Source: Dehalococcoidales bacterium (GTDB taxonomy: Bacteria > Chloroflexota > Dehalococcoidia > Lucifugimonadales > Lucifugimonadaceae). From it: a stretch of 64,000 nucleotides of DNA. Under the pieces are notes generated by a model. That model ran no database searches and had not been told where the DNA came from. It worked only from the letters and a program-made list of their open reading frames with translations. Location of the stretch: positions 55,431-119,430 of the forward strand of contig JAACCT010000015.1 of assembly GCA_009937255.1 (NCBI GenBank), given 5' to 3'. Positions 44,229 through 49,491 of the stretch are shown here, in pieces; within the stretch, counting starts at the first letter, position 1, and each line of letters starts with the position of its first letter. A program made the position numbers and the translations under genes.

Positions 44229-45056
44229 ATGGGAAATAATGATCTCGAAGGAAAAATAGCAATGATAACTGGTGCTGGAAGTGGTATTGGTGCAGGTATT
44301 GCAAAAGTACTATATGAAAGAGGTGCTACTTTAGCTCTATGTGATTTATATGGAGAATCAGTTGAAAAAACTTCAAATTCTTTATCAAAAGATGTACTAC
44401 ATGATTCTGTGGATGTAACTAATATTCAGGATATAGAAAACTTTAGAGATAAAATTTTAGATGTACACGGAACTATCGATATTTTAGTCGCTAATGCAGG
44501 AGTAATTGGAGCTAAAGGATTTTCAGAGAGAAAAAATTATTCTAAGAATGATTGGGCGGATACTTTTGATGTAAATGTAATGGGTATGGTAAATAGTGCT
44601 GATGCTATTGTAGAAGTTATGAAAGAAAAAAAATATGGAAAGATTATAAATATTGCTTCTCATGGTGGTAGAAAGCCAAGAGGATTAGGTGATATGTATA
44701 GAGGTAATGTACAAACTCCATATCTTGTATCTAAATCTGCTGCAATTCAGTATACACATCTACTAGCTATAGAGTTAGGGAGTTATAATATAAATGTAAA
44801 TGCTGTGTGTCCTGGTGTTATTTGGACACCTATTTGGGAAGCTATTGCAGTAAATCATATAGAACAGAATCCAAATTTGAAAAATATGTCTCCAAAAGAG
44901 GTTTTTGATGAGTTTGCTGTAAAAGCAAGAACACCTTTAGGAAGAGCTCAAACAGCTGAGGATATAGGTAAAACAGTAGCTTTTTTTGCTTCTGAAAATT
45001 CATCTGAAATAACAGGACAAGCTTTAAATGTTAATGGTGGAGCTTCTTTAAATTAG
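44229..45056 (+). CDS. Short-chain dehydrogenase/reductase
   Basis: ITGAGSGIGAGIAKVL, VANAGVIGAK, YLVSKSAAIQYTHLLAIEL, VNAVCPGVIWTP, TGQALNVNGG. Confidence 0.92.
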   Translation: MGNNDLEGKIAMITGAGSGIGAGIAKVLYERGATLALCDLYGESVEKTSNSLSKDVLHDSVDVTNIQDIENFRDKILDVHGTIDILVANAGVIGAKGFSERKNYSKNDWADTFDVNVMGMVNSADAIVEVMKEKKYGKIINIASHGGRKPRGLGDMYRGNVQTPYLVSKSAAIQYTHLLAIELGSYNINVNAVCPGVIWTPIWEAIAVNHIEQNPNLKNMSPKEVFDEFAVKARTPLGRAQTAEDIGKTVAFFASENSSEITGQALNVNGGASLN

Positions 45057-45070
45057 ACTAAGGAATTAAT

Positions 45071-46651
45071 TTGAAAAAAACTTTTGATTACATAATAATT
45101 GGTGCAGGATCTTCCGGTGGAGTGATTGCATCTAGATTGTCAGAAAATCCTAATAATAATGTTCTTTTAATAGAAGCAGGAAATTCTTTTGAAAATATTG
45201 ACGATATACCTGATGTAATTTTAAAAGGTATGGCAACAGGAGCTGATTGGACAGGTAATCAAGCTATAGGAACAGAATTTGATTGGCAATATAAAGCTAT
45301 ATCTAATCCTGAATTTACTGATATGGGTGTTCCAAGAGGTAAGCTTATTGGAGGAACTAGCTCAATAAATGGACAAGTTTTTCTTAGAGCTATACCTGAA
45401 GATTTTGAAAATTGGAAATCAACAGGATTGGATAATTGGTCTTTTGAAGAATGTCTAAATTATTATATAAAACTTGAAAATGATTTAGATTTTCAAAATA
45501 AATACCATGGAAATGAAGGTCCAATTCCTGTGAAAAGGCACAGCTTAGATTCCCTCCTTGAAGACCAATTAAGTTTTTATGAAACAGTCCAAGAAATGGG
45601 ATATAAATCAACAGATGATCACAACCATCCTTATTCAGAAGGAGTCGGACCATTGCCACTTAATAATCCAAATGGAATTAGGTGGAGTACTGGAATTTGT
45701 TATATTTTACCTTCCTTACAAAGAGAAAATTTTAAAATTTTATCTAATTCTATTTGTAAAAAAATATTAATTGAAAATGGTAAACAGATAGGAATAGAAC
45801 TTCAAAATGGTGAAATATATGAGTCTGGAGAAATTATTATTTCAGCTGGAGCAATAGAAAGTCCAAAATTATTAATGCTTTCAGGAATTGGAAATAAGAA
45901 TATTTTAGAGAATTCTGAAATTAAACATATTCATCAACTAGAAGGTGTTGGTGAAAACTTAAGAGATCATCCTGCGGTTGAATTAAGATGGAATGCGAGC
46001 GAACAATTAAATAATAATCTGTCAGATGTTGGAGCTCAAAAAGTTGCTTTAAGATATTCATCAGAAAACGCACTATCATCTGATAGATTAGATATGGTTT
46101 CAGTTATGAGATTTCAACCAGGAGGTATGACCGCGGATAATTTACATTTTGATAAATCAGATTTTGGAAAAACTAGAGTAGCAATCACTACTGGGCTATT
46201 TTTAGCTAAAAGTTCAGGAAATTTAACTCTAAACAAAAACAATCCGTTATCTAGACCTAAATTAAATTATAATTTTCTAAATAATAAGTCAGATTTAGAC
46301 CGAATGATTGAAGGTGTAAAATTTAATTATGAAATAGCTAGGCATAATAATTTTGATTCATTTAGAAATGAATTAATAGCTCCTATGCCTGAAGCGTTAG
46401 AAGACGAAGGATTGTTAGTTAAATGGATAAATTCTAATGTTCATACTATGCACCATATATCGGGCACTTGCAAAATGGGAAGTTTAAAAGATAACCTTTC
46501 TGTTGTCGATAAGTTCGGAAGAGTTATAGGCATTGATGGTTTAAGAGTAGCCGATTGTTCAATAATGCCTGATTGTGTAAGAGCTAATACAAATGCAACT
46601 GCGATTATGATAGGTGAAAAAATAGCTGATCATATAGAAAATGGAGACTAA
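45071..46651 (+). CDS. GMC family oxidoreductase (choline dehydrogenase-like)
   Basis: DYIIIGAGSSGGVIASRLSE, GGTSSINGQVFLRA, ISAGAIESPKLLMLSGIG, HHISGTCKMG. TTG start. Confidence 0.94.
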   Translation: MKKTFDYIIIGAGSSGGVIASRLSENPNNNVLLIEAGNSFENIDDIPDVILKGMATGADWTGNQAIGTEFDWQYKAISNPEFTDMGVPRGKLIGGTSSINGQVFLRAIPEDFENWKSTGLDNWSFEECLNYYIKLENDLDFQNKYHGNEGPIPVKRHSLDSLLEDQLSFYETVQEMGYKSTDDHNHPYSEGVGPLPLNNPNGIRWSTGICYILPSLQRENFKILSNSICKKILIENGKQIGIELQNGEIYESGEIIISAGAIESPKLLMLSGIGNKNILENSEIKHIHQLEGVGENLRDHPAVELRWNASEQLNNNLSDVGAQKVALRYSSENALSSDRLDMVSVMRFQPGGMTADNLHFDKSDFGKTRVAITTGLFLAKSSGNLTLNKNNPLSRPKLNYNFLNNKSDLDRMIEGVKFNYEIARHNNFDSFRNELIAPMPEALEDEGLLVKWINSNVHTMHHISGTCKMGSLKDNLSVVDKFGRVIGIDGLRVADCSIMPDCVRANTNATAIMIGEKIADHIENGD

Positions 46652-46653
46652 TT

Positions 46654-47436
46654 ATGAATAATATTCCATCATCATTAGATGTCAGATTGAAAGCTAGGAA
46701 TGGAAATAATTTTACTACTTCAGGATTAGCAAATAGCTTTGTTCAAACTAATGTAGTTATAATACCAAAAAAATTTGCTTATGATTTTATGTTGTATTGC
46801 CAAAGAAATCCAAAACCATGCCCTTTGATAGAAGTTTTTGATCCTGGAGAATTTTCTTCTTCCAATGCAAAAAACTCCGATATAAGAACTGATATACCAG
46901 AATATAAAATTTTTAAAAATGGTAAATTTTTAAACTTTTCTGAAAATATAATATCTTTATGGAGAGAAGATTTTGTAACCTTTTTATTAGGTTGCTCTTT
47001 TACATTTGAAAATGAATTAATTAAGAATGGAATTGATTTGCCATATTTTAAATCTGGAAAAAATGTCCCTATGTTTATAACTTCAATAGATACTATAAAT
47101 GCTGGAAAATTTTCAGGCAAAATGGTGGTAACTCAAAGGTGGATTCCTAGAGAAAAAGTAGTTAGAACAATTCAAATAACAAGTAGATTTCCTAATCAAC
47201 ATGGAACTCCTATACAAGTTGGAAATTCAGAAGAAATTGGCATATTAAATCCTCATAAACCAGACTTTGGAGATTCTTGGATTCCAGATGATAAAAATTT
47301 GGTTCCTGTGTATTGGGCCTGTGGAGTTACTCCTCAAATAGCTATACAGAATGCAAAATTAGAAATTGTGATTACTCATAGTCCTGGAAAAATGTTTATA
47401 ACTGACTTGAAAGATGAAGATATGGCAGTTATATAA
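46654..47436 (+). CDS. DUF1445/YcsI-type putative hydro-lyase (N-terminal half of D-glutamate cyclase architecture)
   Basis: YDFMLYCQRNPKPCPLIEVFDPG, FTFENELIKNGI, MVVTQRWIP, YWACGVTPQIAIQNAKLEIVITHSPGKMFITDLKDED. Confidence 0.87.
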   Translation: MNNIPSSLDVRLKARNGNNFTTSGLANSFVQTNVVIIPKKFAYDFMLYCQRNPKPCPLIEVFDPGEFSSSNAKNSDIRTDIPEYKIFKNGKFLNFSENIISLWREDFVTFLLGCSFTFENELIKNGIDLPYFKSGKNVPMFITSIDTINAGKFSGKMVVTQRWIPREKVVRTIQITSRFPNQHGTPIQVGNSEEIGILNPHKPDFGDSWIPDDKNLVPVYWACGVTPQIAIQNAKLEIVITHSPGKMFITDLKDEDMAVI

Positions 47437-48275
47437 TGGACTATTTAGATATAGAAAAAATTATTTTAGAAGATGATCAAAGAGGCATGACATCTATTTA
47501 TGAAAAAATAAATAAAGGTTACTTAGAAAGATCTGTAGATCTTATTTTAGAAAATAAAGGATTAGTTTTTATTTCAACTGGTTTTTATATTTTTTCAGCC
47601 CAATCTTCTGAAACGGATGGACCTCCTGGGGCCATAGCTTTAGGAGAAACTTTAGAAAAACTTGGTTTTGAAGTTATGTATGTCACAGATAAATTTTCTA
47701 AAAATATTATTTCAGGAATGTCTAGCGAAGAAAAAGTCATAGACTTTCCTATAACCTCACATACTGAATCCAGTAAAGTAGCTAATGATTTAATAAAAGA
47801 TTATGATCCAAAATCAATTATTGCAATAGAAAGAGCTGGTTTATCTAGTGACGGTAAATATAAAAATTTTAAAGGATTAGATTTTTCAAAGTATAATGCC
47901 AAAGTAGATTATTTATTTGAACAGCATCCTTCCACTGTTGGTATAGGTGATGGAGGTAATGAAATTGGAATGGGTAATTATAAGGATATAATTTTTCAAT
48001 TGGATAATATTAGTATCAGTCCATCTATTATCACAACAACCCAGAATATAATTGCAAGTACATCAAATTGGGGTGCATATGGTTTAATCGCTGGCATTTC
48101 AAAAAAAACTAAAATGAATTTAATTCCTTCAGTCCAAAAAGGAAAAAATTTGATTAACCTTGCATATAAACTTGGAGCAGTTGAAGGAATGTCAGGTGAA
48201 TCTAAACCTTGGGTAGATGGAAGATCTTTGGAAAAAGATAAAATTTGTTTAGAAAAACTTAATTCTTTGTTTTAG
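47436..48275 (+). CDS. DUF4392/glutamate cyclase domain protein (C-terminal half of D-glutamate cyclase architecture)
   Basis: STGFYIFSAQSSETDGPPGAIALGETLEKLGFEVMYVTD, AIERAGLSSDGKYKNFKGLDFS, VGIGDGGNEIGMGNY. TAATG coupling with the upstream gene. Confidence 0.87.
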   Translation: MDYLDIEKIILEDDQRGMTSIYEKINKGYLERSVDLILENKGLVFISTGFYIFSAQSSETDGPPGAIALGETLEKLGFEVMYVTDKFSKNIISGMSSEEKVIDFPITSHTESSKVANDLIKDYDPKSIIAIERAGLSSDGKYKNFKGLDFSKYNAKVDYLFEQHPSTVGIGDGGNEIGMGNYKDIIFQLDNISISPSIITTTQNIIASTSNWGAYGLIAGISKKTKMNLIPSVQKGKNLINLAYKLGAVEGMSGESKPWVDGRSLEKDKICLEKLNSLF

Positions 48276-49491
48276 ATTTTTTTTTATCTTTTACTAAAGT
48301 TTCTTTCACAAAAAATCTTAAAAAAATAATTCCTGTGATAGCTATAATGCCACTAGAAAAACTTGCTGTAGCTAATGAGAAACTATTCGCTACTACTCCC
48401 ATTACAGTAGGACCAGCAGCTCCACCACTATCAGAAATAAATCTCCATATTCCTAAAAATCCTCCTCGATTATTTGGTGGTGACAAATCAGATCCAAGTG
48501 TAAGGACTAGTCCACTAGAAATCCCATTTCCTACTCCTGACAAAATAGCCGCAATTATTAATGTGGCATAAGGAGTTAAAAATAATATAGGAGATCCAAC
48601 TGTGCCTATAAGTACTAAAGATGACCCTAATATTATAAAGGCAGGTATTCCTGTAAACCTTCTGCCAAATTTATCCATAATATAACCTGAAATAGGGAAC
48701 ATAAATGAATCTACAGCAAAGCTAAGAGTAGTTATATATCCAATTTCATCTTTTCTCAAATCTAAATTGTCTCCCCATAAAGGTATAACAATTTCTCTAC
48801 TTGCTCTCAAGAATTGTAGAGCTATTGCAGATATTCCTGCTGTTAAATAAACATGTTTATGATCAAAAAAGGTATTTCTTAAATCATTCAAGTATCCAAC
48901 ACTAGGTTTTTGATCACTCATTTCAAATTTTTGAGAATTTTTAAGGATAATAATCAAGGTTAGAAGCGCTACAAAGCCTTGAAAAAAGAAAGGTGATCTT
49001 ATTGATATAAATTCTGCCATTATTCCACCTATTAATGGACCTATTATAGTTGCAATTCTTCCGAATCCACCAAATAATGCTAAAGCTCTACCTCTAGATT
49101 CATTAGGAATAACTGAAGCTATGTATGCATGTCTAGAAATTGACCATAAAGCGAAACTTACACCTGCTAATATTCTTGATAGAAATAAAATAGTAAAACT
49201 TCCACTTAATCCTGCAAAAATAGAACTAACTCCAAATAAAATAACTCCAATGATCATAGTTCTGTTAAGTCCTAATCTACCAATTAACATACCTGCAGGT
49301 ATGTCAAATCCCATTGTTCCAAAATGTCTTGCAGCTATAGCTATCCCAACTAATAAATCACCTGATTGAAAAGTATCTCTAGCATATATTGGTAATACAG
49401 GAATTAGAAGGCCTTGTCCCATAGAAAGTAAAAAACTTGGAGCATAAACACTCCAAAATATAGATTTTATTGAGAAATTACTTTTATTCAA
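48259..49491 (-). CDS. MFS transporter
   Basis: 12-TM pattern; GIAIAARHFGTMGFDIPAGMLIGRLG, SRILAGVSFALWSISRHAYIASVIPNESRGRALAL. Confidence 0.9.
   Translation of the reverse strand: MNKSNFSIKSIFWSVYAPSFLLSMGQGLLIPVLPIYARDTFQSGDLLVGIAIAARHFGTMGFDIPAGMLIGRLGLNRTMIIGVILFGVSSIFAGLSGSFTILFLSRILAGVSFALWSISRHAYIASVIPNESRGRALALFGGFGRIATIIGPLIGGIMAEFISIRSPFFFQGFVALLTLIIILKNSQKFEMSDQKPSVGYLNDLRNTFFDHKHVYLTAGISAIALQFLRASREIVIPLWGDNLDLRKDEIGYITTLSFAVDSFMFPISGYIMDKFGRRFTGIPAFIILGSSLVLIGTVGSPILFLTPYATLIIAAILSGVGNGISSGLVLTLGSDLSPPNNRGGFLGIWRFISDSGGAAGPTVMGVVANSFSLATASFSSGIIAITGIIFLRFFVKETLVKDKKKSKTKN

Follow-up and report, generated by a model that had tools for sequence, protein, structure and literature searches.

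The 64,000-nucleotide stretch of DNA analysed here (the window) comes from a SAR202-clade Dehalococcoidia bacterium and carries adjoining genes for DUF1445 and DUF4392, the two domain families that are fused in a vertebrate protein reported to have D-glutamate cyclase activity (PMC5339696). The question raised by this locus is whether the two bacterial proteins are subunits of a single D-glutamate cyclase, as the first-pass annotation suggested, or two enzymes that work separately. We consider an obligate heteromer less likely than a pair of enzymes that fold separately and belong to the same D-glutamate/5-oxoproline pathway. In this reading, to which we give a probability of about one half, the two proteins would correspond, in bacteria, to the DGLUCY halves. 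The features of the locus are:

44229-45056, + strand: SDR oxidoreductase, upstream of the pair; arrangement kept only in the genus
45071-46651, + strand: GMC oxidoreductase, separated by 2 nt from the start of DUF1445; arrangement kept only in the genus
46654-47436, + strand: DUF1445/UPF0317 protein, 260 aa; PF07286 'D-Glu_cyclase', NCBIfam PRK05463 'putative hydro-lyase'
47434-47438, + strand: TAATG junction; stop TAA at 47434-47436 and ATG at 47436-47438, one base common to both genes
47436-48275, + strand: DUF4392 protein, 279 aa; PF14336 'GLUCM-like_C', six TON_0340 metal ligands kept
48259-49491, - strand: MFS transporter, convergent; its 3' end overlaps the end of the DUF4392 gene

The gene pair and its known relatives

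Both open reading frames match their families far above the curated Pfam cut-offs. The frame at 46654-47436 scores 178.6 bits against PF07286 (cut-off 25, E=8e-53) and the frame at 47436-48275 scores 220.3 bits against PF14336 (cut-off 27.9, E=5e-65), which confirms the two domains named in the first-pass annotation. The DUF1445 protein also passes the PRK05463 equivalog cut-off (340.8 bits vs 324). The one-base TAATG overlap is seen in the sequence as described earlier, and the gene order is indeed that of the DGLUCY fusion, DUF1445 then DUF4392. The two frames are separate and in different reading frames, i.e., they do not form one polypeptide.

All the neighbours named earlier (SDR, GMC, MFS, VOC and RidA) are present, the last three downstream of the pair on the opposite strand. 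The MFS, RidA and fumarase/aspartase-like neighbours are conserved more widely than the SDR and GMC genes, which were rejected as components of the system because they are conserved next to the pair only at the genus level. The MFS gene is a frequent neighbour of the pair in the family and is possibly an importer.

Compared with DGLUCY (also GLUCM; the vertebrate mitochondrial protein C14orf159, mouse 9030617O03Rik), the window has the same domain families in the same order (PMC5339696, PMC5132392), but in two genes instead of one polypeptide, and the predicted packing of the two domains is not confident. The relation between fused and split forms is already noted in the literature. PMC5132392 proposed that the two families are fused in animals, perhaps to serve functions linked in sequence, and PMC11580864 lists six gut-bacterial homologues of the human protein (GLUCM_HUMAN) that are split. 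The pair in the window, from marine SAR202, shows the same two-gene split as this gut-bacterial set, a likeness in the kind of split and not a sequence-by-sequence one.

Among solved structures, the closest in sequence are 3db9 (Atu3911) and 2pif (PSPTO_5379) of the UPF0317/PRK05463 family, with which the window DUF1445 aligns over most of the chain, and for DUF4392 the Thermococcus onnurineus protein TON_0340 (4fc5/5gl4; E=4.9e-27). Foldseek searches with the modelled pair from Ca. L. marina match the same structures, 2pif/3db9 and TON_0340, so that both proteins are predicted to have the folds of these relatives. TON_0340 is archaeal, and according to its paper archaea have no DUF1445 homologues (PMC5132392). 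Its six acidic metal ligands are all found in the window DUF4392, as E59, D61, E132, D172, E176 and D261. They are nearly invariant over 122 classified DUF4392 copies, paired as well as solitary; one paired copy has V at the E176 position.

Arrangement of the pair in other genomes

PF14336 and PF07286 are each found in 37 of 40 relatives from the order and are missing from the same three (G028, G036 and G037). According to the coordinates, the two genes are side by side on the same strand in 36 of the 37 relatives with both families, the exception being G035, and this adjacency is therefore not due to chance. The relatives with named records include SAR202 MAGs and Ca. Lucifugimonas marina (L049, CP046147.1). 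Among 80 loci from named genomes, DUF1445 is directly upstream of DUF4392 within 300 nt in about 60, and six further loci have it 690-2634 nt upstream. The pair is thus not special to the window; it is a conserved arrangement, of a kind already recognised.

The details of the junction vary more. In only 18 of 76 distinct pairs are the upstream stop and the downstream start no more than 4 nt apart, the remainder being 8-287 nt apart, so translational coupling was rejected as a general, defining trait, and the one-base overlap is a local feature of this pair. The order of the genes is not essential either, as DUF4392 precedes DUF1445 in one Chloroflexota family (L181-L185, L199). No natural bacterial DUF1445-DUF4392 fusion was seen among the open frames of the loci examined, and each family is also found alone in many genomes. 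At L046:5502-5990, a HEPN/AbiU2-like gene is located between the two. Two genomes, G295 and G279 (L158, L163, L173, L177), contain several DUF4392 copies, some of them in tandem, with no adjoining DUF1445 in the loci examined.

To model the two domains together, AlphaFold2 was run in monomer mode on the natural read-through of the in-frame Ca. L. marina pair, including the natural linker. With 10 paired rows the model reached pLDDT 80.2 and pTM 0.53; with 101 rows, i.e., after adding unpaired halves to the 10 paired rows, pLDDT rose to 93.7 and pTM was 0.58. This would indicate that both domains fold well and that their relative position is not fixed, but the packing result is weak evidence because few rows are paired, the mode is monomeric and the linker is natural.

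These observations bear on the proposal that DUF1445 and DUF4392 assemble into an obligate heteromer of two subunits, a D-glutamate cyclase that would correspond to the fused DGLUCY. It agrees with the reported activity of the vertebrate fusion (PMC5339696), the adjacency in 36 of 37 relatives from the order and the one-base overlap in this genome. However, the families also occur alone, the order can be reversed, pxp genes intervene between the two in some operons (see below), the packing in the read-through models is not confident, and in gel filtration TON_0340 behaved as a homodimer (PMC5132392). We consider an obligate heteromer unlikely, and the two-subunit enzyme suggested in the first-pass annotation is not supported by these observations.

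Gene context and a proposed D-glutamate/5-oxoproline pathway

The link of the pair to D-glutamate/5-oxoproline metabolism is supported by gene context in other organisms from several phyla. PxpA, PxpB and PxpC genes are located between DUF1445 and DUF4392 in Dehalococcoidia (L085, L090, L094), and a Lachnospiraceae locus (L118) has the order PxpB-PxpC-DUF1445-PxpA-DUF4392; the pxp assignments were confirmed by Pfam for L090 and L118. Three Pseudoalteromonas plasmids share the order GH3-DUF1445-PxpA-DUF4392-class IV aminotransferase. In L201, the aminotransferase scores 247.8 bits against the D-amino-acid transaminase model, below but close to the cut-off of 277.45, and the GH3 protein reaches 190.9 bits with the beta-N-acetylhexosaminidase model, likewise below but close to the cut-off of 207.

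DUF1445 has similar neighbours where DUF4392 is lacking. It is found beside PxpA in Lactiplantibacillus and Gemmobacter (L206, L208); in Sulfitobacter and Acidovorax (L209, L210) it precedes TRAP transporter and hydantoinase B/oxoprolinase genes, and in Azospirillum it adjoins RidA and gamma-glutamyltransferase genes. No neighbour of these kinds was seen at the Rhizobium locus L207. B. subtilis YcsI is presumably also a member of UPF0317/PRK05463, judging from a control match. Its gene is located in the pxpABC operon (PMC10448178), and several members of the family that lack DUF4392 adjoin pxp or oxoprolinase genes.

In Omnitrophota (L117:5974-9712), DUF4392 is followed by a MurL-like epimerase and then a MurD-like Mur ligase with 4-nt overlaps, where the MurL-like protein scores 200 bits against a MurL cut-off of 700. 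Relatives of both genes are in the same locus as DUF4392 in Rokubacteria (L092). Among the neighbours of solitary DUF4392 genes are also an arylmalonate-decarboxylase-like gene and a molybdopterin dehydrogenase gene in L119, and UbiD and aspartate/glutamate racemase family genes in L202. As distant solitary copies sit among other catabolic genes, the function of DUF4392 is not uniform. MR_MLE genes, of the mandelate-racemase-like enolase superfamily, are found near DUF1445 or DUF4392 in L190, L197 and L027. Enolase expansions are a known trait of SAR202 group I (PMC6946804), and these neighbours may for that reason be there by chance.

From the activity reported for the vertebrate protein (PMC5339696) and the gene context, we infer a D-glutamate/5-oxoproline chemistry in which DUF4392, with its Mn/Mg site, would act on D-glutamate, DUF1445 would act at the 5-oxoproline step, and PxpABC would turn 5-oxoproline back into glutamate. 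Of the chemistry proposed in the first-pass annotation, the pathway link stands through gene context in several phyla, and the activity is a prediction. Known 5-oxoprolinases use the L form; if the product were of the D form, a racemase would be required, which this analysis did not identify. A literature search for D-pyroglutamate operons gave nothing usable among the results listed.

A different view is that the pair salvages 5-oxoproline arising spontaneously from glutamine and glutamate, D-glutamate not being the main natural substrate. The DUF1445 genes linked to pxp genes without DUF4392, including ycsI (PMC10448178), are consistent with this, as is the near-universal presence of the pair in an order where a peptidoglycan D-glutamate route was not found (see below). 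However, the vertebrate fusion is reported to act on D-glutamate (PMC5339696), and the D-amino-acid-transaminase-like, GH3, MurL-like and MurD-like neighbours in other organisms are related to D-glutamate; we consider this view unlikely. That DUF4392 is a metal-dependent phosphatase or other hydrolase unrelated to D-glutamate, its pairing reflecting another pathway, is highly unlikely. In its favour, TON_0340, a solitary DUF4392 with neither D-glutamate nor 5-oxoproline among its listed substrates, is reported to be a weak Mn-dependent phosphatase (PMC5132392), the metal ligands are almost invariant and solitary copies lie beside sugar and 2-hydroxyacid enzymes. Against it, the phosphatase has a low kcat/KM of 190 per M per s with AMP, and the association of paired copies with pxp genes is repeated in Chloroflexota, Bacillota and Pseudomonadota.

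D-glutamate supply and the Pxp genes in SAR202

PxpABC is present in all 15 SAR202 loci examined, including one from this genome. Here, it is on another contig (C28) than the pair (C35); PxpABC in cis with the pair was not found, and the separate contigs count against the pathway reading.

Neither the glutamate racemase MurI (TIGR00067) nor MurD (TIGR01087) was found above cut-off in any of 40 genomes of the order, and control genomes matched both models. MurL gave no match in 40 SAR202 genomes either, but the controls also lacked a match, so that no absence can be concluded from this. SAR202 is reported to be without peptidoglycan biosynthesis (PMC10444878, PMC11994032). Since MurI and MurD were not found and SAR202 makes no peptidoglycan, any D-glutamate in the order would probably be scavenged from outside the cell, which makes the external source suggested earlier plausible.

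The most novel lead of the analysis is the linkage of the Pxp operon to sodium-pump subunits: in SAR202, Pxp genes are often accompanied by genes for a biotin carrier, for OadB and, in part, for OadG. By coordinates, 24 of the 29 SAR202 genomes with both genes have OadB no more than about 5 kb from PxpA. The order PxpA-PxpB-PxpC-OadG-BCCP-OadB is seen in L132 (5744-10268) and L135, and this genome has PxpA-PxpB-PxpC-OadG-BCCP running to the contig end (L128:17-3018). With 459 bits, the OadB-like protein exceeds the cut-off (190.6) of a model for the beta subunit of sodium-translocating decarboxylases. The biotin carrier in L132 has an ESMKME motif. In L142, PxpABC is likewise linked to OadG-like, biotin carrier and OadB genes. 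PYC_OADA had no match in several genomes with the Pxp-OadB linkage; G031, a relative from the order, has 13 such matches. Among the results listed by a literature search, none usable dealt with 5-oxoprolinase together with oxaloacetate decarboxylase. It can be speculated, as quite a long shot, that the pair feeds scavenged D-glutamate/5-oxoproline into a biotin-dependent, sodium-coupled Pxp module in the peptidoglycan-less SAR202. If true, a sodium gradient would power the lactam step or be fed by it, and ATP would not be the sole driver.

For the vertebrate enzyme, the reported activity is that of the fusion. As the bacterial genes are separate, also in a cultured SAR202 strain, each DGLUCY domain could be assayed alone. 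The near-universality of the pair in a wall-less marine order raises the question whether D-glutamate left by other bacteria is scavenged, or whether 5-oxoproline is the real substrate.
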